Shown piece by piece: positions 16,950 through 60,395 of a stretch of DNA of 64,000 bases. The position numbers were made by a program, and so were the translations under genes. This stretch comes from Acorus gramineus (taxonomy: Eukaryota; Streptophyta; Magnoliopsida; Acorales; Acoraceae), in the NCBI GenBank assembly GCA_030737835.1, contig CM060857.1, positions 15,883,496 to 15,947,495 of the forward strand, given 5' to 3'. A model generated the notes under the pieces. The model had not been told where the DNA came from, made no database searches, and saw only the letters and a program-made list of their open reading frames with translations. Within the stretch, counting starts at the first letter, position 1; each line of letters begins with the position of its first letter.

Positions 16950-17625
16950 CATGTACCTAGAGGTGTCAAACGGGCCGTGCCGTGCTGGCCCGGCCCGTTA
17001 AACAACCGGGCTAACGGGCCGGCCCGGCCCGGCCCGTTTCATGTAACCGTGCCGTGCCGGCACGGCACGGTCCGCAGGAGGGCGGCCCAGCACGGCCCTC
17101 CGTGCCAGCCCGGCGGGCCACCGTGCCGTGCCGTGCTAGCCCGGCGGGCCAAACGGGCCGGGCCCATTGACGGGCCAACGGGCCGGCCCATTAAAATGTC
17201 CATTTTTTTAAAATTTTTAAGTTTAATATTTAATTCCATGTTTAATTTACTAGTTCCTTTAAATTAAAAAATTAAAAAAATATACATAAGTCATTTATAA
17301 AAATTGAAAACTAAAAAGAATTAAGAATACAAATATTTATTTTATTGAATATTGAATTTCTTTGAGTACATGAACAATAATTAAATAAATGATAAAATGA
17401 ATAAAAAATACACAAATAGTACATTGATGAATAAAAATAAATTATACAATTCTTAAAAAATACATTGACAAATACAAAAAATTAAAAAGTGAGTAATAAT
17501 TGCATCACTATAGTTTTTAATACATCCCAACTAGGTTGGCACCTATTAAAACTATCAATCACTTGCAACTCACCTTTCAAAAAATTAAAAAAATACAACA
17601 ATGAGAAGATTTATATGTGAAATCT

Positions 17626-19728
17626 TCATTGATCATCATCTATGTTGAATTTTGTAAAATCCACCTCAAGACTATCTACAAATTCTTGATTTCTTTCATC
17701 AGCATCACTCCAATCCTTCAGACAAATAAGAGCTTCCAGTGAACTTGCTGCCAACCTGGTCCTCCTCTCAGATAATATTCTCCCACTTGTACTAAAAGAA
17801 GATTCTGAAGCCACTGTAGACACTGGAGGAGTTAGTAAATCTCTTGCCATTATAGAAAGCACAGGAAATGTCACTTCATGTGCTTTCCACCATTGCAAGA
17901 GATCAAAATTTTCCATCTCCTTTTCAGTTAAAAGAGACTTCCAATCATTTTCTAAATATTTAAACAGTTCATTAAGATGAGAACTACCACTACTAGAATC
18001 ATGTGAAGTGTGTGAACTTTGTGAAACAAAATCAAAGAAATAATCTTTTTTCTTACCTTTGCCTAATAAACTAATAGATGAAGTGGAGGATGATGCTCTA
18101 GTTCTATTTGCATATTTATTTTCATATTTTTTATACATTTCAGTTAAAGCAAATTCTACATCTTCACCACTTATAACCATTGGAAATCTAACATTATCAC
18201 TTATTCTTGAAATTATAGTTTTAACAGTATCTAATTTAATAGTAATATCCATTACAGCAGCTAAACAAAAAAGCATAGGAATATCTTCAAAATATTTTTT
18301 AAATTTTTGTTCCATCAAGAAAATAGATTCTTGAAGTATACTATAATCTCTATATTCTTTAAATGCACAAGAAATATTAAATAATTGTCTAAGTATAAGA
18401 TTTGATGTAGGATAATAAACACCTGAACAAGCAATAGAAGCATCATAAAAAATACTTAAAAATTGCACAAAAACTTTTGAAATTTGCCAATCAATAGGAG
18501 AAATTTCAACACGATTGTTAAACATTTCATTAAATTCAATAATCAAATTTTCATAACCCTCACAACTTTGCAACATTATATATGTAGAATTCCAACGAAC
18601 ATGCATATCAAGAGGAAATTTTCTAGGGGGAATATTGCGTGTCGCACAAAAATCACCAAATGCTTGTACTCTAGAAGGTGTACAAGTAATAAATTTTAAT
18701 GCTAATCTAATATTTACTAATGATTCTTCAATATGAGTTAATCCATCTTGCACAATTAAATTAATAATATGACATACACATTTACAATCATAAAATTCAA
18801 AATCATAAGGTAAACCCAAAGAAGATTTAAATTTTAAAATAGCACTAACATTATTACTAGCATTATCAAAAGTTATGGATAAAATTTTTTCAGTTATATT
18901 ATATTCTCTAAAAATATCCATTATTGCTTGATAAATTACTGTGCCGGTGTGTGGAAATGTAAGTGGACGAAAAGCTAACATTCTTTTATTTAACATCCAA
19001 TGAGAATCAATATAATGTGAAGTAACACAAATATAGGCTAAATCATTCTTACCGGACCATAAATCAGATGTGCATGAAATTTTTTGAATGTTCATGAATG
19101 ATTGAATTAAATGATTTTTCATTTCATTGTAAACTCTAATTATATCTGATCTAATAGTATTTCTAGAAACAGCTCTATATTGTGGATTAACGTACCTTTT
19201 TTGAAAACGTTCAAATCTTTTACTTTCAGCAAATGTAAATGGTTGTTCATCAGATGCTATATATACAGATAAACCTTCTCTCATACTAGATTGATTATAA
19301 GAGAATGTAGACATTGTACCTTCAGTACTACCTGTTTGACCGAAACTCCCAATCTGAGACTGCGTACCGGGATTCAGTTGTTGTTGATGCCTTTTCAGAC
19401 ATGATTCAGCATGTCTCTTGAGATGTCCGGTACCACCCGCGCTTGCACAACTAAAATTTTTGTTACAATATTTACAAACAGCTCTATCTTCCATTCTACC
19501 TTGGTATTTAATATTCTGTATTGTGTAGTGCTCCCAAACTTCAGACTTCCTACTTTTAGAGGGTTTTTTTTGTTTTCCAGTTGGGGGGTGACTAGATGAT
19601 GCACCAACATCACCTCCAACTGATTCATGGGGGGTTTGGGATTGGTCTTGGGGTAAATCATGTAGTAGGTTATCTATATTGTCAAATTCATCATCAGTGT
19701 GTGAATATTCTATGTTTGGGTTGGCCAT
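17626..19728 (-). CDS. hAT-family transposase (BED finger, RNase H-like core, hAT dimerisation domain)
   Basis: Uninterrupted 700-residue frame from the ATG at 19728. A BED zinc finger spans about 62-110 with C85, C88, H102 and H106. The RNase H-like core shows the conserved acidic positions D222 (in CTSDLWSG) and D288 (in TFDNASNN). The C-terminal hAT dimerisation domain, about 580-670, has LLQWWKAHE and PVSTVASESSFSTSGR; E642 there is probably the third catalytic acid. The length is normal for plant Ac-like transposases. It excises and reinserts the element by cutting at the inverted ends in the nucleus. It is the only gene in the element. No stop or frameshift was found. Confidence 0.95.
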   Translation of the reverse strand: MANPNIEYSHTDDEFDNIDNLLHDLPQDQSQTPHESVGGDVGASSSHPPTGKQKKPSKSRKSEVWEHYTIQNIKYQGRMEDRAVCKYCNKNFSCASAGGTGHLKRHAESCLKRHQQQLNPGTQSQIGSFGQTGSTEGTMSTFSYNQSSMREGLSVYIASDEQPFTFAESKRFERFQKRYVNPQYRAVSRNTIRSDIIRVYNEMKNHLIQSFMNIQKISCTSDLWSGKNDLAYICVTSHYIDSHWMLNKRMLAFRPLTFPHTGTVIYQAIMDIFREYNITEKILSITFDNASNNVSAILKFKSSLGLPYDFEFYDCKCVCHIINLIVQDGLTHIEESLVNIRLALKFITCTPSRVQAFGDFCATRNIPPRKFPLDMHVRWNSTYIMLQSCEGYENLIIEFNEMFNNRVEISPIDWQISKVFVQFLSIFYDASIACSGVYYPTSNLILRQLFNISCAFKEYRDYSILQESIFLMEQKFKKYFEDIPMLFCLAAVMDITIKLDTVKTIISRISDNVRFPMVISGEDVEFALTEMYKKYENKYANRTRASSSTSSISLLGKGKKKDYFFDFVSQSSHTSHDSSSGSSHLNELFKYLENDWKSLLTEKEMENFDLLQWWKAHEVTFPVLSIMARDLLTPPVSTVASESSFSTSGRILSERRTRLAASSLEALICLKDWSDADERNQEFVDSLEVDFTKFNIDDDQ

Positions 19729-20295
19729 TTGAAATTTAAAAAGTACAAATTTGAAATTTGAATTTAAAATTTAAAATTTGAATTTAAAATTCTTCTATTT
19801 GAATAGTTAAAATTTAAAATATTAAAAATTTGAAATTTAAAATACACTTTGGTTTTGAAATATGGAATTAATTTGAATTTAAAACTTGAAATACACTTTG
19901 TAAAACTTGAAATTTCAAATGTGTAGAGAGTAGAGACTAGAGATGAAGAGTGTGAGACTAGTAGAGATTAGAGACTAGAGAGAGAGAGAGAGCTTCCCCT
20001 AATCTCCTTAGGCTTGGAGAGTTGGAGCCTTGAACCTTCCCAGTTCCCACCCTTTGGAGAGAACTTCCCTTGGAAAGAGCCTTGAAGAAATGGAGATTGG
20101 AGACAGAGAGAGCTTTCACCACCACTTCAATTTGATTGAAGTTTTCACTTGAAAAGAAAGAGAGCACTTGAACACTAGAACACTTGGAATTCCAACACAA
20201 AACTAGAAAATTTTAGAGGAAGAAGAGAGTGTAGTAGTGGAGGAGTAGAGAGATTTGTGATTGAATTGATGAAGAAATGGGTGGATGGGGTGGGG

Positions 20296-20303
20296 TATTT
20301 ATA
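20296..20303 (-). promoter_or_regulatory. TATA box of the hAT transposase gene
   Basis: On the minus strand the sequence reads TATAAATA. It lies inside the right end of the element, between the GC-rich subterminal repeats and a leader of more than 500 bases ahead of the transposase ATG at 19728. This is the position expected for a self-contained transposon promoter. Confidence 0.6.
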
Positions 20304-20371
20304 GGTGAAGAGTTTTGAGTTCGAGCGGGCCAACGGGCCGTGCCAACGGGCCGGCCCGGCCCGTTGGCCCG

Positions 20372-20540
20372 CCAACGGCTAGTCCAACTAGCCGTTGGCC
20401 AACGGGCCAACGGGCCGGGCCACCGGGCCGGCCCGGCCCGTTGGCCCGCCAACGGCTAGTCCAACTAGCCGTTGGCCAACGGGCCAACGGGCCGTGCCGG
20501 CCGTTGGCCCGTCCCAACGGCTAGGTGGACTAGCCGTTGG
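20372..20540. repeat. Three perfect or near-perfect palindromes in the hAT subterminal region
   Basis: Three 27-bp palindromes with arms CCAACGGCTAG and CTAGCCGTTGG around a 5-bp loop lie at 20372-20398, 20449-20475 and 20514-20540. The first two sit in a tandem unit of about 77 bp that also holds CGGGCCGGCCCGGCCCG. They occur only at the right (promoter-side) end. Likely roles are transposase binding or hairpin formation. Confidence 0.8.
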
Positions 20541-20968
20541 TGGAGGTGGGGCCCACGGCACAAATTGTGCCGCGGGCCTAGCGGGCCGTGCTAGAAACGG
20601 CACGCGGGCCGGGGGTCAGGCCCAGCCCGCGTCGCCACCCAAACGGGCCGGCCCACGGCACGGCCCGTGCCGTGCCGTGCCGTGCCGTGCCGGCACGGGC
20701 CCTTAACGGGCCGTGCCACGGGCCGGGCCGGGCCGGCCCGCCCGTTTGACACCTCTACATGTACCTTATATCTGATCTATGGTGTTGATTTTGCATGGGC
20801 CCACAACCAAATTATTTTATATTATATCTGTAAAAAAAATTATTTTGGACAAAGTGGCAACATATGATTGATCTTAATTTGTTTTTTAATAATATTTCCC
20901 CTTCAAACAAGGATCAGTGTAGTGCATAAGATTCGCAAGAGTCTTCCTACTATATTCTTTTTTTTAGG

Positions 20969-22045: not shown

Positions 22046-25000
22046 CTATCTCCAAAGCTTCACAGACGTGTCATGGCTTGCCGATGCAACCATTCCACTG
22101 ACGGGAGACTGGGCCAATGCGGCGATCAAACCATCGTGCCCTTGCACCGTCATGCACTTGTTCTCCGTCATGTTCCACAACTCCAGTGACTGCGATCATG
22201 ACGAACCACGAAAATTTAAAAAAAAAAAAATTGAAAGCAACTTTCTTTCTCCATCGGATGACTACTACAAGAAACTGGGTTTTTACCTGGTAACCCCCTA
22301 TAATGAGGAGGTTAGAATAAGTTGGATGGAAGATACAAGAATGGAATTTGTTCCCATTGGAGCTCAGCTCATGAACAAGATCTCCATTTCTGATTGACCA
22401 GACTCTCACAGAATCCTGGCTCACAGAGGCTAAATATTCTCCATTAGCATCCCAACATACTGAGTGCACCTCTTTTCCATGGCCCTACAAAGAAGTGGAT
22501 ATGGTCAAATGCTAGCACGAGCCAAACTTGATGATGTATGGTCTTTCATTGGATTTAAACTTGGGAAAATGATCTAAGCTGGATATTTTGAAAAATTAGA
22601 ATAACCACTCGATGAATAATCAAGATAAGGCCCCTGCTCATGTGGGATTCTTTGCTCATTTGGTAGCGCATTGTTTTTTTGTGCATAAGGCTTGGTGTAA
22701 TGCCAACATAACTTACATATAATAGGTATTAAATGTGATAAACAAAAATATACAGTCAGATACCTGTAAAGTGTAAGACTTTCTATCCGTTTCAACATCG
22801 AAAACAGAGACCATGTTATCAGCTGCAGCAGCAAGATATTGTCCAATTCGTGGCTGAAATCTCACTTGAGCTGTACCACCCTGACCAATTAACAATGTAT
22901 ATCAGAAACACAGATCAGAAACAAAACACCACTCCTCTAAAACTTTTATGTATATAAAAGAATATAATAAGTATAGTCAAAATTGAGTGTTCTAGAAGAA
23001 ACCTTTGAGATACGTGTGCATGAAATCTGGTTGATGTTCCAGTAACGCATTTCACCATTGCCATCACAAGAGCAGAAGAGATCAGTCTTCTTCGGATGGA
23101 AATCTAGTGACATCACAGGGAAATTATGTCCGCTATATGTCTTCACTAGATAGTCTGGCTGCAAACCATATTATTTATAAATAAGATTAATTCAAACATC
23201 ACAAAGTTGAAAATAGGAATTTTTAAACATCTCAAGTGGCATAATTAGCCTATTTTTTAAAAAATGAAACAACCAACTGTTAAGTGTGAACAGACAAATA
23301 ACAAAATAAAGAAGCCAACGGTAAACCAGGTCAATCAACTAGTTGCAAGAATGGTTTCACTGATTAAACTTACCATGTTATTAGGTGGCATTCATTCATG
23401 GAAAATAATACATAATGAAATTTTGAACAGACATATCAATTGTCTGCAATCCACATACAAATTGTTCTGCAAAAGCACCTAGCAACATCCAGGTAATTGG
23501 AGAAATATAGGAATTATAGCATGCAAAAATCTTTCATAATTCATAAACATTGAATGGATGAGGACAGACACTAACATAATAGGTTTAGCACATCAAGCAC
23601 AAACTCTTGTGAAACAACCTAGTTCCATAAAGCCAATCCCAGATCAATCAGAAACAGCCTTTTTTAATGCTCTATAATCTGAGAGGAGAATTAATAGGAA
23701 GATTTTTTAGTAAAGCTTTCCTAATTCAATTTAACTTAAATGATAACCTAATTCAAATTAAATGATATTCATTGTCCACTACTTTCAGTAATTGCCTGCA
23801 AAGTTAAATTCTGTGATTCAGTATGGCTAGTGGCATCTAATATACCTTGCCACCTTCCACAACTTATATTGTTAGCATTCAAATCCGCCTCTTTTAGATA
23901 AGATTCTTTTCGATGTAGAAAGTAATATAGAAAGTAAGACATCAACAAACATTTTCTACACTTTGCACATAATCAAAGGAGCTCAGTCACCTCTCCAATT
24001 CCCTGGGAAGTTCATGGTCATGATTCAATTGTCTGTCTAATGCAAATTTCCTCAACTAAAATTGGATTCAATGGAATCTGCAGAACAACATTTTAAGGAT
24101 CCATTTGCTTTCGAGGAGAAAACATGATAACAATGATCATAGACAAGCTTTAATAAAAAAATGAATAAATGAAATTGATTACCATCAAATCACGTAAAAT
24201 AGGTCTATATCTTCAATCAACGAATAACTGAATGATGTAAAGAAACAGTAGTGAAAACATCCTGGAGAAATACACACTACAGATTATATATTTCTACAAG
24301 TAAAAGAGTATCCAGTAATCATGTACTCATGGAATTCATTTTTACTTGCAATCGATCAGAAAGAGAATGAAATCATACTTTTGCTGCATCCCATAGCCGC
24401 ACAGTCCTATCAAATGAGGATGTTGCCAGCTGTGTTGAACTTGGTCTAAAGCGAATATCCGTAATTATAAGAGCATGTCCTTCTGGTGTGCTCTCTGTTT
24501 TTAGTGTGTCCATGTTCCAAAGTACAACCTACCAACAAATGCACAGACTAATCAGACAACCATTTTCTACATAATTAAACCAATGTAAAACTGCCAAAAG
24601 TTTCAAGAAGATATCTCCAAGTCATTTATGTAAATTTAGTAAAAAGATGAAATGGTCCCATTAGTGTTTGTCAGTCTCCAATGAGGGATGCCTAATTGCT
24701 CACAACACCTCACATGTTAAACATGTGAGGGACGCCTAATGGTCCCATTAGTGTTTGTCAGTCTCCAATGAGGGATGCCTAATTGCTCACAACACCTCAC
24801 ATGTTAAACATGTGAGGTGCCATGTGTCAACCTCTAATTAGGAACATGACAACAAAAAACTGATGAGATCCAGCATTGACTATATCCCATCCCTAAAAAG
24901 ATACGTCTTCTGATTTCTATAACCAAAAAAGGAGCAGCTAGAAACATTCAACTTCCTTAATGAAATTTCAATGTGAGGGTTCACATGATCCAAGTGAGCC

Positions 25001-28000
25001 AGAAGGAACACAATGATTTTGATTCAATTATGGGCATCATCTCTTTTGTGTAAGACAGAAAATAAATACATTAGAAAAGAGAAACAATGAAAAGATTTAA
25101 ATCTTCAATCAATATCCTTCATCACCTTCACTTCTAGAGGCTTTCAACTTCTTGATGGGAGTTCATCCATCAAAAGTGACCTTTAGTTTAATCAGAATGC
25201 TAAAATCATAGCTCCAGATGTCAGTGATTTATACCCAAGTTCCTCGAACTCGTTTAATGAAAGGAGGTTTTAAGTATTCAAGATGTTTCAAGGGATTTTC
25301 TTGTTTCAAAGTTTTTTTTCGGGAACTTGATGTGGAGTACTTTCCAAATTCAAGCTGGCTTTTACATATTAAAAAAATAAATCAAACAATGGGATAAGAA
25401 TAAAATTTTATAGTGAACTGTTCAGAAGACCATTAGCCTCTGTGTTTACGTATAGAAGCAAGCAGAGCAGCCAACTGTGTATCAAATTTGGCTTGTTGAA
25501 TCATTCATGAACCTCCACAAAACATCATTCTATTTAATTCAGCAAATTAATACTGTAAGTATGGTGTTCAGAAGACCATTAGCTTCTGTGTTTACGTATA
25601 GAAGCAAGCAGAGCAGCCAACTGTGTATCAAATTTGGCTTGTTGAATCATTCATGAACCTCCATAAAACATCATTCTATTTAATTCAGCAAATTAATAAT
25701 GTAAGTATGGTGTTAGTTAATCCATAAAGAACACACCCAGACCCTTTGAAAATAAGGTATATTAAGGTTTATATATACATATGTATGCATGTGTGTGTGT
25801 GTGTGTGTATGGAAGTGCCAAGGATCTCCAACAATCAACTTATGCATGAATTATGTCTCCAACAAAACAATTTATCAAGAACAAAGAGTTCATACAATAA
25901 TAGCTGCAATTACCTTCTTCTCATGCCCAGCACTGGCCAACAATTTACCATCTGAAGAAAAATGGCAGCAGACAACTTTGCTATTGCTCGTACAGATGCG
26001 GCCAACTTCTTGGAAGGTAAATGCTGAAAGGTAGAACATGTGTTATTGAAACAACCAGAAAACACCAAATAACTTAAAAAACAGAAAAGAAAAAAAAAAG
26101 AAAAAGCAATAAAAAAGCAATTACATTTTGAGTGATCTGTTTTGTGATCTGTGGGGCTTCTTGTAAATGCACTAAACACATCCCTTGTTTCTCCATCATC
26201 ATGTGAGAGAATTGATTCTACGTTATCAAGGGAACTAACATCCCCAAAATTTTCCATATCATCCTGAATGAAAGAACAAATGGTAATAAGGATTGAATAG
26301 ACTTTATGTAAATTAACACTTTTAACGCAGAAAAGAAAGTTTATACCAGTTGATTAGAAGAAGAAACAAGTCCACCAGCTCCATCTGTACTGTACATCAT
26401 TAAACTCTTGGGCATGTTGTTAACTTGTTGTAGACCTCCCCCCAAGGCCCCTCCATCACCCGATGTATGAATAGACGGAGTTGATGGAGGAGATATCGAA
26501 GGACCAATTGTATTCCCTGTACCCGTGCTGTTTGCAGCTCCAGAAGCAGATTGCTTCCTTTTTCTGTTATTCTGACATCACTTTAAGCAGTTAATAGAAA
26601 AGGAACCAGTATGCTTGATCAAAAGAAAAAAATCGAAATAGCTGAAAATCATATTACATTATCTAGACCAGATACCTGTTGCAACTGCTGCTGCTGCTGC
26701 TGCTGCTGAGCAGAGGACTGCTGCATATGAGCCAACTTCATCTAAGAAAAGCATAACGGGATGTTAAAACAAATGTAGTAGAGTAATACAACAGATTTCC
26801 GTACAGGATCTATGTAAAGAGAACACTTCCTTGTCCAGGTTTTGGAGGCCTATTGGTACCCCTGTCCATGTCTGACATGAAAAACAGGAACGTTTATAGC
26901 ATTGAGCCTTCTCATGTCATTGTTACATCAATTTTGCACACAATTCAAAACCAAGTTAAACAAGATTGGCAGAGTTCCTAGTTTTTTAACATGCAAATAT
27001 CAGTTGGTGAGTGGTGACCGATACCACCTAGTTCAGATAGATGGCATCATGATCAGGATTTCCTTAAATTTCATGTACATTCCAAAATCTCTGGATCAAG
27101 AAGACCCATAAAATCCTCACCTTCTCTAGTTATGGGAAACCATTGGTTTGGGTGACGTAATCATGGACTTGATTGGCGTTGGGGTTTTCCCTGGTTTGTT
27201 GTATTTCTTGTTTTCAAATTTTCCCTCTTCTCCTCTCTCTTTGTTAGGAGATCCCTTTTCTCCTTCTATTCCGAGCTTGTTGTTTTTTTATGACGGAGGG
27301 ACCTTCCAAAAAAGGACATGATGAAAAAATAAATATTCCGAGGTTTCTTATAATAAGATTCTCCTATCTCCTTCAAAAAAAGAAGACCCATATAATAATC
27401 AATAACCCATATAGCCCAGTATCAACATAAACTTCTAATATCAAAGTGTGGCCAGAAATTCAAGTCTCTGGACCATGAAGAACCACAAAATCATCAATGT
27501 CTACAAAGCCCAGTATCAACATAAACTTCTGATATCAAAGTGTGGCCAGAAATTGTTGCTAACATGCCAACTTATGATCCCTCAGCCAGGAAAAAATAGT
27601 AATGTTAATTTTGTTGTCAAATTGGCCAAAAATTTTAAGCCAAAGATAAATATTAAGCTAATGGTGTTCAAGAAAGAAGATAAGAACTGCCACTCGATGC
27701 AGATTGAGGAGGCCAGGTGGGCAAAGATATGCTCATTTATGGCTACTAATCAAATAACTTATGGATTTAAATAATGAAAACACATTTATTTTGCTGATTA
27801 AATAAAATCTCAAAATATTCAATAATTATTTCAGTGAGTAAATAACTATAATTTAAGATCAACTTAATACGAGTCCCCACTATATGCTAACATCTGTGGA
27901 TGTAAGCATGTCGGAGAGTGTTTTGATATGGTAATAATTCTAGACCGTAATGTGCACACGAAAAGTTCATAAGAAAATATATGCATGTACAAGACAGACA

Positions 28001-31000
28001 CAAGAAGATGCAGGAATATCACAACATAGAGGCAATGAACACATACAGCTACAAAATTAAAAGGAAAAAAAAAAAAAAAAGATGGTAGATATCTGTAACT
28101 CATAGACACATGCACAAAGATCAAAGCAAACTATACATTTGTACAGTTGTACAGTTGTACCTCACCTTTCAAGCTTCAGTATGCAGGACAGATGCAAAGC
28201 CAAAGTCACATATAAAAAAATAATTTACTTCTACATTAATGATGAAAATCGGTTTTGATTATACCAGTTATGCAGCTCTTTTTTATATATTCATCACCTA
28301 ATACACATATGAAAGCAACTATCTTATTGTAACAATGATCTTCCTTAAAGATAAAAGAAATTTTTACAGCACCAGAAAAACTAACCTTCATTATAATTTC
28401 TGTTTGATCCTGAGAAGTCACTCCAACATTTGGCGAAGTTGATTGGCTGGGAGAACCTATCAAATCATTGTTTTCAGTAAGTTGGGAACATCTTTTACAT
28501 TCAGACTACCACTAGGTAACACCCTAAATTTCTGATGATTCAATTTTCTGAAGTTGGGAACATTACCAAGATTGCCCTGCACCTGAGCCTGTGCGAAGAG
28601 CTGCTGCTGCCTCTGGGGGATCAACATTTGATTCTGATTAGGTGCATGCAGAAAAGGCCTATGTACTTGTGGGCTAAAGCTTGGACCTAGTTGATCAATC
28701 CCCTGAAGATTTTGATAATTTGATGTATCAGTATTCATGCTCCTAAAAACAGAGAAGTTATTCCATATTCAAATCAGATTTTCATATTCTTACAGTTAAA
28801 GGCCAGCCACCCTTCATATGAAGACTACTGACTCCTTGGTTCATTCCTACAGAAAGGATGAAGCAGAAATATCAAGATTTTGTTGTTTTAATAATTGACA
28901 CATCAAACTAATTTTTATGAAGAAAATACCTATTAATATGAACCAAGGATCCTTAACAATCAATGAATTTACAGTTCTTTTCATTCTTTAAAGTCTCAAG
29001 CATAACCAATTGCTTTAGAATAATTCCACAGTTTCACCAAAATTTTATAAATATCCTCTGCAATTAACTTAAAGATGCATTGTTAATCTCAAAGGTCATA
29101 AAATCATTTAGAACCATATTAACCAATCAATTGGGTGATAAATATCCCATTTTTCCAGGCAGTTAGGCATGCAACATTGCCTAATTAAGCTATAAAAGAG
29201 AAACTGAATGGACCTTGAAAGATTCAATAAGGCTAAGTGCAAGATCGGGCAAAGGCTCACTAGCCTCACTTAGAACTTTTTTTACCACTCAAATCATGTC
29301 CTACTCTTTGATTTCTGGATGGTTTCTCAGAAAGTCATTTGCATAATGTTGTGCATAGCTGAAGCCAATATTTATAGGAGAAAAGAAAAGATAAACAAGC
29401 AGAAAAGTTTCTGTCATATCTGGTGGTTAAGTATTGTCAACTATGAAAATAAAAGAATCATAGTAGCAAAGAAAAAGAAAAAGCGGAAGTTGGATAATTT
29501 TACGAAAAAGAGTGTACTCTTCACTTAGCAAATGGATCAAACATATCAAAAAATTTAAGGAAATCTAACACGATTTATTTTTTATGTTAATTATTTTGAA
29601 GAATAGCTTGAAATTTTAGAAAGTATTAGATGTTATCCAAGGAACATTTAATAAATACATTAGCCCTTGAATAAAGAATTTGCATATTCAAAGCAAGGTA
29701 TGCAGTTCTGACACATTTAAAATGATTCACTTACCAGCAGGACTTGATCCTAATGGCTGCATAACACCCTGTGCATAGATTGATGTATTCATAGGTAGAC
29801 ATCTCTGAGATAAACCCGAATTCGCATCACTTAAGATGTCCTATGATCATTAAAAAATGAAAAGAAAAGAAACAAAGAGATTAACATAAACAAATTATGT
29901 TCATATAAAAGGAAAATACAATGAAAATGAACAAGGAAGTCAAAGAGTGCAAGTAATTACAGTGCTCTGTTGAGCTTGTGCCTGAATCTGCTGCAATGAT
30001 ACACTGCCATGATTGCCTTGGACTAATTGTCTGCATCAACAAATTACAATGAAAACATTAATAACAACTACAATAAATTAACTAACTTCCTGAAGTCATG
30101 CAATCTTCTTCTTCTTCTTTTTTTATTGTTATATTTTAACTTCAGTTAGTAAGTTGATAGAAGGGAATAAAAATAAAAGAGTAATTGAATGGATTTCTAT
30201 ACTGATGCCCTAACAATCAGCTGAAATGTTAATGGCCGACATCAAGGAATATTAGTACAAGAAAGTGAAATTACCCAGGATGATTATTTGCTGATTTTAG
30301 AAGGGACATTCTGCTAGCATCAAGTTGGGGGGACGAGTTAGAATCTAATGACTGAGGATATTTCACTCGTCCATCATATAGTTTTGCAGCCAAAACACTA
30401 GCTGGGGATGGCCCCCCCAGAATTCCATCAGAATTGATAGCACCTCCAAGAGATTGATAACTACCATCCCTTTTCTGTATTTGTCCGTGTTGCTGTACAA
30501 ATTGCAATTGCTGCTGCATTTGTAGCTGTTGTCGCTGCTCTCTTGCTTTAATTTGTTGCATCTACATACACAAACACACAAGAACTATAATAACCAAACA
30601 GCCAACACAATTTAACAGGAAAAAGAAGGGAAGAAAAGGCCACTTTAAGAAGCACCTCTATGTATGCTGCGGCAACCTCAGAGTGCTTTTCATTTGTCCT
30701 TGAAATAAAGATATCCCAAAAAACAGACCACCATTCATAAAGAAATCCTCCAGGTGCATCAATTGCTACATCCAAGGCAGAAACAAGATCATTGTCAGTG
30801 TCGCTCATTCTCTGTAGGGAACTCATAAAGACGGAAAGGAGACACTATCTTTTAATGTAATTCGTGTCAAGGGTTGGTCAGGTGAAGGGGAAATTAGTCA
30901 AAGTTTTGTTGGGAAGTGGATATTAATATATATGTAGCTAAAAAAGGTAAGGTTGATCCATAGATGTGTTTGGAAGTGCGTTATTACAAATCTACAACCA

Positions 31001-32696
31001 GGTGTTCTAAAGGATGATTAAGATATAACATTGCATTAGATGGAAAGGAAATGTGCAATGCCACCATTGATTACATCTATAAATAAAAAAGATGAGCAGA
31101 CTATGTTCCATGAAACTTGGTTGGTAGGTGTGTGAGTGGGAGTGCATTTGTGTTATGGGTTTGAGGAAGTGTGGATTGAGGGAGGGGGATTGGGGTGTTG
31201 GGGATTGTAAGGTGTGGATGGAAGTTATAAAGACTAAGGATATTTCACAAAATGTACCTCATTGTGGGATTGTAGAGCCAACAGAAAAACAATTTCCCCC
31301 ATCTTTTATTGAACAAAAAGATGTTTTCTCTTTTTGTTTGTCCAAAATCCTAAGGTTGACAATTGACATCAACAGCCAGGCAACAGAAACAATCCAATGA
31401 ATCCATGTAAACCAAATTCCTCACTGAGAGAGATATCATCCTCAATCAAGAAAAACCAAAGTGAAATTTTTAAATTTAATCGGAGTATAAATTTCATGAC
31501 AAGTGGTTATGTTCAACAAAAAGTTAAGTGAGAAAAAATAATTTCTTTTTCTTGCGGAGGAAAATTGTGTTCTCTATAGATGAAACGACAATAGAACAGT
31601 AAGCTTCAAATCTAGTATACAAAACAAGCTGTGTACAAATTGAAAAGGTGTACATACAACCCAAGTTCCCAGATGGCCAGATCCAGCACATAGCCTATAT
31701 TATCGGCTATATAATGAATACTCATTCCATTCTTTTATGAATTTTCATTTTTTTACAACTATTCCAACTTCAACATGTACAAATTGGAAAAGAAGTAGAA
31801 TCTGCAATCCACTTTTTCGACAGAATTTAATGTGAACAACAATAGTCAAAGAGAGGGAAAAAAGGTAATGGAATGAGTAAACTATTCAATCAATATACTC
31901 AAAGCATTGATATAAGAAATTTGATCAATTTTTCTCTTTTTTCTTTTATTTTTTCAGCCCCTATATGCTTATTCCAGCTTTTAAATTTACATCAACCACA
32001 AAAAGTATCCTCCTGTTATAGGCTTTTGTTTGTGCCAAACCAAGAAAAGGAAATTCAGCATGGCAATCAGTTGTTTTAACTTTCATCTATTAAAAAAATC
32101 AAATGTTGCAAGCAAACCCACTCAGTTCCCTTTATCGGAGAGCAAACTAAAAGACGCTAAGAAATTGTATTTCAGCTTCCAATTCACTCATGCACCATGA
32201 AAATTCAAAATATACAACCAATAAATTGCCACTTAGTCCAATTAAGTCGTCTGTCTTTTACTTGGGTGACCCATGTTCAAACCCAAAAAGAACAAGATTT
32301 CAGAGAGATAAAATCAAAATCCGGCCGAGTTATTCTCACCTACGGGGTCAGAGGAGACCTTCCCTTCATCCATGAAAGCTTTAGCTGTAGATTGCAAGTT
32401 CTTTTTCAACAAATAGTCATGTATGTAAACATCCAGCCTACAAAAGAGTTCAGACGACTCGATACAGCTCAATCTTGCATTGAAAATAACATTAAAAAAT
32501 TTATTACAAAAAATATCTGAACTAAGAAGGATTTTTTTTTTTTTTTTTTTTTTGAGAAATTGGTAGTTCATTCATATCGAGAAACGATTACAAATGAGCC
32601 GAATGGGGGGAGAACAGAAGGCATAGAACTAACAAGGATTAAAAACACAAGCAATGCATACATCTTTTCCGCCTCCCAATTGCTTCTTTGCGCCAT
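22046..32696 (-). CDS. LUH: LEUNIG_HOMOLOG-type transcriptional corepressor, with a one-base frame break in exon 8
   Basis: Seventeen coding exons: 32696-32662, 32437-32340, 30765-30656, 30561-30275, 30030-29961, 29840-29735, 28846-28794, 28702-28386, 26741-26676, 26571-26347, 26263-26125, 26023-25914, 24528-24379, 23158-23003, 22880-22764, 22484-22287 and 22189-22046. Residues 1-81 form the LUFS/LisH domain ([13 protein letters not shown]..., [20 protein letters not shown]). Gln-rich linkers follow, then seven WD40 repeats ending [10 protein letters not shown]. Plant LUH is a Groucho/Tup1-like corepressor that works with SEUSS-type adaptors in the nucleus. Exon 8 is 317 nt although both its junctions are phase 0. 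The frame changes near 28489 and, read as is, stops at 28462-28460 after 333 residues, before the WD40s. One added base would give about 793 residues, the usual length. The break may be real or a sequencing error. An acceptor at 32717/32718 suggests a leader intron. Confidence 0.93.
24651..24824. repeat. Two-copy tandem repeat, unit about 87 bp, in LUH intron 12
   Basis: The unit starts AATGGTCCCATTAGTGTTTG at 24651 and again at 24738, nearly identical. Each copy ends with a hairpin, CCTCACATGT-TAA-ACATGTGAGG. The copies are so alike that the duplication must be recent. Confidence 0.9.
25420..25711. repeat. Two-copy tandem repeat, unit 146 bp, in LUH intron 12
   Basis: GTTCAGAAGACCATTAGC starts at 25420 and at 25566. 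The units differ by only a few bases. This is the second independent tandem duplication in the same intron (24529-25913). A GT microsatellite lies just beyond it, near 25789-25808. Confidence 0.9.
27413..27554. repeat. Two 48-bp direct repeats in LUH intron 8
   Basis: AGCCCAGTATCAACATAAAC to GGCCAGAAATT occurs at 27413-27460 and 27507-27554 with one mismatch, a 94-bp spacing. A chance 108-codon frame overlaps them but shows no family signature. Confidence 0.8.
32534..32625 (-). mobile_element. Short 5'-truncated LINE-like insertion with poly-A tail in LUH intron 1
   Basis: On the minus strand about 70 bp of LINE-3'-end-like sequence (ending ATGAACTACCAATTTCTC) runs into a run of A (22 T on the plus strand at 32532-32553, the first two shared with the target repeat). 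GAACTAAGAAGGATT (32519-32533) and GAACTAACAAGGATT (32626-32640) flank it with one mismatch. The tail and target duplication show retroposition. The insertion lies 36 bases from the end of the first coding exon. Confidence 0.75.
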
Positions 32697-58225: not shown

Positions 58226-58508
58226 GCTCAATCAAAAACCCTAATATCCAGAATTAGTAGTGCTAGATCTAGAGAATCTTAAACCATATATCCCAACCCT
58301 TTCTCTCTCACATGGCCCTCACGCCTCCCCTCCATTGTCTTTAATTTACATCTTTTCATTTAATCCTCCTCTCTTTCACGTGTCAATCTCGTGATTCTTG
58401 TTCACCCCGCCCTCTCTCTCTCTATCTCTCTCTATAACACAAACACAAACACAAACACAACCTCTAAATCTGTTATAACACAAATTTCAACCAATCTCTT
58501 TTTCTCTC

Positions 58509-60395
58509 ATGGAGTTCCTGTTTGTCTTAGCTTCAACACTCCTCATCTCCTCACTGTTCCACCTATGGAAGGCCTTCCAAAGAAGAAGGAACAGCCGTGA
58601 CTGTTACCTCCTCAACTACGTGTGCTTCAAGCCGGTCGACCACCGGAAGGTGTCGACGGAACTCTGCGGGAAGATCGTGAGGCGGAACAAGCTCCTCGGA
58701 CTCGACGACTACAAGTTCCTTCTGAGGGTGATCGTGAACTCCGGCATAGGCGAGGAGACCTACGGGCCGACCAACATCATCGAGGGGAGGGAGACGGAAC
58801 CCACCTTCGACGACGCCATGTCCGAGATGGATGACTGCTTCTTCCCCACATTGGACGAGCTCTTCATGAAGTCCGGTTTCTCCCCCTCCGACATCGACGT
58901 GCTCGTCGTCAACGTCTCCATGTTCTCCCCCGCCCCCTCCCTCTCCTCCAGGATCGTCAACCGGTACAAGATGAGGGAGGACTTGATGGTAAGGATATAT
59001 GAACAAATCTGGATGGGATCTATTTTAGATCCGGCTGATTTACAATATTTATTTCACATGTTTAGCACGTGAGATCTGTTAAAACAGTGATGGAATTCAA
59101 TTTTGACTTGATTCACCTATGAAATTGTCTACTTGAATCTATAAAAATTACTAAACATGATCACTCATACTCACTTTTATGGTTGAGTATGTTTTAATTT
59201 TTTGTTGAACACACACATATATATATACACACACACACTCTGAAGGATTCACAAAAAATTGAATATATGTTTTTTATAATATCAAATTAGAAAAAAAAAA
59301 TACATATATATACATATGTTAGTCAACGAATAGCTGAATATAGCATAACACTAAAATTTATACACGGGGATATGATTTTATTATACCATTATATTAATGT
59401 TATGTTATGTATTTAAACTTATGAAAAGAATATATAAATACTTAATCACATACACATATATGCACATGCAGACATACAACCTGACAGGGATGGGATGCAG
59501 CGCAAGCCTGATAGCGATCAACGTAGTGAAAGACATCTTCAAGTGCCAAGAACGAAAGCTAGCGATCGTGATGACGTCGGAGTCGATCAGCCCGAACTGG
59601 TACTCCGGCAAGGACAAGTCAATGATGCTCGGCAACTGCCTCTTCCGCTCCGGCGGCTGCGCCGTCCTCCTCACCAACGACCCCCTCCTCAAGTCCCGCG
59701 CCAAGCTCAAGCTCTCCTGCCTCGTCCGCACCCACCTCGGCGCCGGCGACGAGGCCTACGACTGCGCCGTCCAGAGGGAGGACTCCGACGGGCTCATGGG
59801 CTTCCACCTCAGCAAGGACCTCCCCAAGTCCGCCACCAAAGCTTTCTTCGTCAACCTCCGCGGCCTCGCTCCGATGGTCCTCCCCATAAGAGAGCTCCTC
59901 CGCTACCTCCTCACCAGGCTACGCGAGAAGAGGAGACGCGACAAGATGACAAATACGACGACGAAGTCGGCGGGGGTGAATTTCAAGGCAGGGATTGACC
60001 ACTTCTGCCTGCACACGGGCGGGGCGGCTGTCATTGAGGGCGTGGCAAAAAGCCTCGGCTTGAGCCAGTTTGATGTCGAGCCGGCGAGGATGACCTTGCA
60101 TAGGTTTGGGAACACTTCGGCGAGCAGTCTTTGGTATGTGTTAGGGTACATGGAGGCGAAGAAGAGGTTGAAGAAGGGGAACAAGGTGTTGATGATAAGC
60201 TTTGGAGCTGGGTTTAAGTGCAACAGTTGTTTGTGGGAGGTGTTGAGGGATTTGGAGAACAAGAATGTGTGGGAGGATTGTATTGATGAATACCCACCTA
60301 AGAATTTGATTAACCCATACATGAAGAAGTATGGGTGGATCAATGAACACTCGGTTATTCCGGATGTCCTTCCTAAAGAGTTTATTGGGTTTTGA
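58509..60395 (+). CDS. KCS12: 3-ketoacyl-CoA synthase, KCS12-like
   Basis: Two exons (58509-58988 and 59472-60395; GT-AG, phase 0) give 467 residues. It condenses malonyl-CoA with long-chain acyl-CoA, the first and substrate-selecting step of very-long-chain fatty acid elongation at the ER membrane, feeding cuticular wax or other lipids. One N-terminal hydrophobic segment (about 3-20) is followed by the FAE1/KCS catalytic domain. Catalytic residues visible: C169 (TGMGCSAS), H341 (HFCLHTGG) and N374 (RFGNTSAS). The short N-terminus, [12 protein letters not shown] and [21 protein letters not shown] point to the KCS12-type subgroup; the exact orthologue is inferred. Both exons use C or G heavily in third positions, in contrast with PRT1 and LUH. 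A possible polyadenylation signal AATAAA lies at 60493. The exon 1 frame reads through into the intron for 27 codons. Confidence 0.93.

Follow-up and report, generated by a model that had tools for sequence, protein, structure and literature searches.

The closest described counterparts of the locus considered here are the Groucho/Tup1-type corepressors LEUNIG and LEUNIG_HOMOLOG (LUG and LUH), early-stage pseudogenes among the products of whole-genome or segmental duplication, and template-switch or templated-insertion mutations. Most described short template switches are inverted. A stop codon with exon junctions downstream is expected to lead to nonsense-mediated decay. For the corepressors, PMC12643531 assigns tetramerisation and SEU binding to the LUFS domain, and has the LUFS plus Q part failing to bind AP1 or SEP3, with the WD part being sufficient for AP1. 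In a 64,000-nt stretch of the Acorus gramineus genome, here called the window, a LUH-like gene on contig C11 has its reading frame broken in exon 8. Our favored account, held with moderate confidence, is that the break came about through a recent, real and templated small mutation in one of two old duplicates.

As applied to genes of this genome, the names LUH and LUG are presumptive and follow domain order. An earlier reading made from the sequence alone (below, the sequence-only reading) was right about the gene, its exon phases and the LUFS-only product of 333 residues. Its 17-exon model, with an exon 8 of 317 nt and every other junction in phase, withstands frame arithmetic: the introns are GT/AG, exons 1-7 total 759 nt and exons 9-17 total 1305 nt, each divisible by 3, and exon 8 is phase 0 at each end (coordinates of the features are in Table 1). 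In frame 0, exon 8 has a stop at codon 81 (28462-28460), giving 253+80 = 333 residues, while its 3′ part is open in another frame from 28505 onward, so that the frame change must fall within 28505-28460. The presence of the frame break in the assembled sequence is confirmed. From the exon coordinates, 74 nt separate the premature stop from the exon 8/9 junction, and nine junctions are downstream of it. The LisH/LUFS domain is complete at the N-terminus (Pfam LisH, E 5.1e-08, in the 5′ product) and residues 5-70 of that product match SSBP2/SSBP-type PDB chains (best 1.2e-09); the product of exons 9-17 is WD40 (E 2.8e-38) and matches beta-propellers. As assembled, the WD40 region is out of the LisH/LUFS reading frame, and the C-terminal WD40 in the same frame that LUG/LUH requires is therefore wanting. 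Frame and domain searches thus agree with the prior claim of a stop at this position leaving 333 residues with LUFS and without WD40.

Table 1. Positions in the window of the gene, its broken exon and the elements relevant to the break
Feature	Position	Strand	Basis
LEUNIG_HOMOLOG-like gene, 17 coding exons, C11 copy	22046..32696	-	splice sites, phases; LisH in 5′ product, WD40 in 3′ product
Exon 2, LisH part of LUFS domain	32340..32437	-	gene model, Pfam, PDB matches
Exon 8, of a length (317 nt) not divisible by 3 (C7 copy: 315 nt)	28386..28702	-	
Part of exon 8 kept with candidate new donor AAT/GTAAAA (GT 28498-28497)	28499..28702	-	joined to exon 9: in frame, 755 residues
Upstream copy of 13-nt ATGTTCCCAACTT, in frame (NVPN), presumed template	28551..28563	-	repeat search, copy comparison
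Downstream copy of 13-nt ATGTTCCCAACTT, spanning the frame break	28479..28491	-	repeat search, shuffles
Altered letters, five bases in place of the three of C7 and of each LUG paralogue (net +2)	28485..28489	-	copy comparison
Premature TGA ending the 333-residue reading; TAG directly after	28460..28462	-	frame reading
Exons 11-17 with the WD40 region, open though lying beyond the break	22046..26263	-	

A check for a second LUH copy, which had been advised, revealed one on another chromosome that is complete and collinear. When the assembly from which the window derives (398.6 Mb, 137 contigs) was searched with exon 8, two matches were returned, the window itself and C7:22889234-22889548 with 80% identity; since nothing else was returned, an alternate haplotype within the assembly is rejected. 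The C7 gene as built has 17 exons and 813 codons and is open throughout, and it lies in a block that, in inverted order, is collinear with window positions from roughly 4.5 to 46 kb, some of the matching rows being scattered repeats. Comparison of the 17 exon lengths gives eight that are equal, eight whose difference is divisible by 3, and a single one, exon 8, that differs by 2. The frameshift is thereby the sole exception among nine length changes, which fits error as well as it fits recent mutation. With dS between the two copies at 0.427 in the 5′ part and 0.432 in the 3′ part, the duplication is an old one. C8 and C32 each carry a more distant paralogue, LUG. Compared in protein identity among the copies of this genome, the window copy is closest to C7, for instance at 75-85% over WD40 and linker exons versus 52-68% for their C8/C32 counterparts, though some exons of the latter reach 73%. 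Intron 2 of the C7 copy (C7:22879620-22885868) is 6249 nt, versus 1574 nt in the window copy, with about 4.6 kb of it lacking a match to the window; the extra length is probably an insertion.

What changed in exon 8 is apparent from the relatives. The site reads GATGTTCCCAACTT in the window copy versus GATGGTCAACTT in C7, and the LUG paralogues have GATGGCCAG (C8) and GATGGACAG (C32). All three relatives encode KDGQ there (GKDGQ in both LUG paralogues), which makes KDGQ the older state and means that the window copy gained two bases net. The sequence-only reading had one base missing near 28489. That is at variance with the relatives, which show three bases replaced by five, and because C7, C8 and C32 all carry the shorter KDGQ form, a single missing base is rejected as the simplest reading; the two descriptions have the same resulting frame and different histories. 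Just upstream of the break, at 28550-28510 (-) in exon 8, a stretch common to the other copies is lost: C7 has GEMDPRRLRVLPRG with GEMDPRR, LUG has GDIDSRRLRML (GDIDSRR), and the window copy has RKLNHQK.

The 13-nt sequence at the break does recur 72 nt upstream in the exon, as had been pointed out, and the repeat bears on the origin of the change. Within the window, ATGTTCCCAACTT is present twice with no other occurrence at up to 1 mismatch. A direct repeat of at least 13 nt within exon 8 arose in a fraction of 0.0006 of 5000 dinucleotide shuffles, the longest such repeat being 13 nt in window exon 8 and 7 nt in that of C7, and when all 1024 5-mers are tried at the site with the flanks fixed, just the observed one finds a 13-nt match in the rest of exon 8. 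Widening the template search to the gene with 2 kb of flank at either end makes the match less striking, as 7/1024 5-mers then reach at least 13, and 2 of 100 whole-window shuffles also gave at least two matches to the 13-mer at up to 1 mismatch. Within exon 8, the changed letters match a nearby template beyond chance. The corresponding upstream stretch in C7 is different (ATGCTACTAACTT), and so the copied letters are the window's own version. Judged from these letters, copying from the upstream stretch would be the best single account of the change. Synthesis at the downstream site during replication or repair would have taken a few bases from the nearly identical sequence that lies 72 nt upstream within exon 8, with the shared flanks ATG and CAACTT being used for the copying and three bases being replaced by five; the resulting patch, known from a single assembled sequence (one allele, one individual), would shift the frame and bring ribosomes to the stop after 333 residues. 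Elsewhere in the gene, intron 12 contains tandem duplications at 25419-25714 (146 bp x 2.0, 98%) and 24651-24817 (87 bp x 1.9, 100%), which are recent and local and fall within the gene that carries the templated patch.

As to when the break occurred, the 467 codons after it have no stop in their own frame and a dN/dS versus C7 of 0.22 (0.50 in the first 130 codons, 0.17 in the last 337), and the 316 codons before it have 0.30 (0.12 for the first 80, 0.38 for the others). With changes polarised by agreement of C8 and C32 as outgroup, the 5′ part has 28 on the C11 lineage versus 5 on that of C7 (p 6.6e-5 over 214 sites); for the 3′ part the counts are 24 and 14 (p 0.14 over 373 sites). The C11 copy has evolved fast, though not especially behind the break: faster decay of the 3′ part than of the 5′ part, which would have been a sign of an old break, was not seen in this comparison (Fisher p 0.059, in the opposite direction). 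Relaxed constraint behind the break, which a duplicate-derived pseudogene should exhibit, was not found (3′ dN/dS 0.22), so that pseudogene status fits only if the break is recent. A model of neutral decay, in which the range given is that of the assumed indel rate, expects three disabling events by 0.009-0.019 substitutions per site, versus roughly 0.21 substitutions per site per branch since the duplication. Taken with the open and constrained 3′ part, that expectation implies that the break is recent, or is an error, or is bypassed.

Error in this context means a base-level fault in the assembly, with the plant's actual exon 8 being in frame and the locus encoding the full protein. An open and constrained 3′ part that is not evolving faster than the 5′ part is what this would predict, as are the eight other exon length differences in multiples of three, and an in-frame templated change combined with a one-base error would look identical to what is seen. 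However, a plain indel error would not create a 13-nt match to sequence 72 nt away, and what distinguishes the site from its relatives is three bases becoming five with a substitution, not the absence of a single base. Further, exons elsewhere in this gene, in the C7 copy and in the ketoacyl-CoA-synthase-like gene nearby read open, with no sign of a low-quality stretch, and we consider an error unlikely. A shade less likely again is that the break is actual but spliced out of the mRNA, either by skipping of exon 8 (in frame, 687 residues) or by joining of a new donor to the exon 9 acceptor. Each of these joins preserves the frame, exon 8 having phase 0 on either side, and persistent constraint on the 3′ part (dN/dS 0.22) is also in keeping with rescue. 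The candidate donor GT is 9 nt upstream of the patch and is found only in the window copy, with GG in C7 and both LUG paralogues. Its score of 5.7 is reached by just 2/114 exonic GTs in the C11 coding sequence (1/117 in C7), and 5/32 real donors score lower, on a matrix trained on those same 32 donors, a circularity that counts against the comparison. The exon 8 tail has a higher dN/dS than the head, 0.66 (5 synonymous, 12 nonsynonymous) versus 0.44, on too few changes to decide. Against rescue, the normal exon 8 donor is intact and at 8.8 outscores the candidate, and since enumeration of splicing gave 38 in-frame open outcomes, having one near the break is not rare. That the G-to-T donor is in use, with the last 113 nt of exon 8 now intron and a candidate 755-residue LUH with a shortened linker as product, is accordingly quite doubtful. 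Were it so, the end of the exon would have turned into intron and sheltered the frameshift, which would have arisen in sequence no longer coding, and the copy would not be dead. Programmed -1 ribosomal frameshifting is rejected as a means of bypass, there being no in-frame X_XXY_YYZ slippery heptamer in the overlap 28505-28460; exon 8 has a single heptamer of this type, beginning at 28531, which is outside the overlap and out of frame.

A very different outcome is that the truncated reading yields a protein, 333 residues of LUFS plus linker, that behaves as a dominant-negative partner toward SEUSS-type adaptors. Its LisH/LUFS domain is whole, the first 80 codons have a dN/dS of 0.12, and on the domain roles set out in PMC12643531 a stable fragment could bind SEU but not AP1 or SEP3. 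However, the stop precedes an exon junction by 74 nt and nine junctions follow it, so that mRNA decay is to be expected. As the change is recent, the constraint on LUFS predates it, dN/dS in the 5′ part is 0.38 past codon 80, and the faster C11 evolution is seen over the whole 5′ part (28 versus 5). The truncated, partner-binding corepressor earlier envisaged is thus possible in principle but weak as a proposal, given the expected decay and the intact C7 copy, and we regard it as very improbable; with C7 intact, loss of a spare copy is judged far more likely than acquisition of a new dominant-negative.

By the templated-mutation account, the gene would be one of two LUH copies from an old segmental or whole-genome duplication, with the complete C7 copy buffering loss of the window copy, whose transcript would be removed by nonsense-mediated decay and which would be at the start of pseudogene decay. 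Decay of its mRNA and loss of its function are what the exon structure predicts. The best reading is then of an event ordinary in kind, the loss of one duplicate beginning through a templated frameshift. In the literature on LEUNIG/LUH and template switching, no report of this LUH frame break was found among the matches listed. The case illustrates how, following duplication, a corepressor copy can be set on the way to loss by one small act of copying, and the window/C7 pair is a clean system for testing whether losing one LUH is silent. For annotation, without RNA the locus should be called neither an intact LUH nor a natural dominant-negative.

Other elements of the window merit mention. At about 17000-20750, 3′ of the LUH gene, is a hAT-type element with a 714-codon stop-to-stop frame, 17626-19770 (-), that has a hAT dimerisation domain (E 1.1e-26), an RNase-H-like domain and a BED finger, and that is flanked by very GC-rich repetitive ends. 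The element is apparently open. With blastn (E 1e-8, rows >60 nt), the C7 stretch compared has no match to the window between 15138 and 21005. A two-exon 3-ketoacyl-CoA-synthase-like gene at 58479-60395 (+) reads as intact, its frames covering FAE1_CUT1_RppA positions 3-136 and 135-288 and the C-terminal domain.

In relation to known systems, the window copy is like LUH, and the LUG/LUH Groucho/Tup1-type corepressors in general, in its LisH/LUFS N-terminus, Q-rich middle and C-terminal WD40 repeats, and shares its 17 coding exons with the intact C7 LUH copy. It is unlike them in the broken frame of exon 8 and in loss of the GEMDPRR stretch that C7 has kept. With early-stage pseudogenes among whole-genome or segmental duplicates it has in common a collinear intact twin, one disabling change and faster protein change; it departs from them in having one defect so far, with its loss of function being deduced. 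Parallels to the template-switch and templated-insertion mutations described in PMC7954356 are in the clustering of a substitution with inserted bases in a manner explicable by copying of a nearby stretch, and the difference is that the template of the window patch is in direct orientation, 72 nt away.
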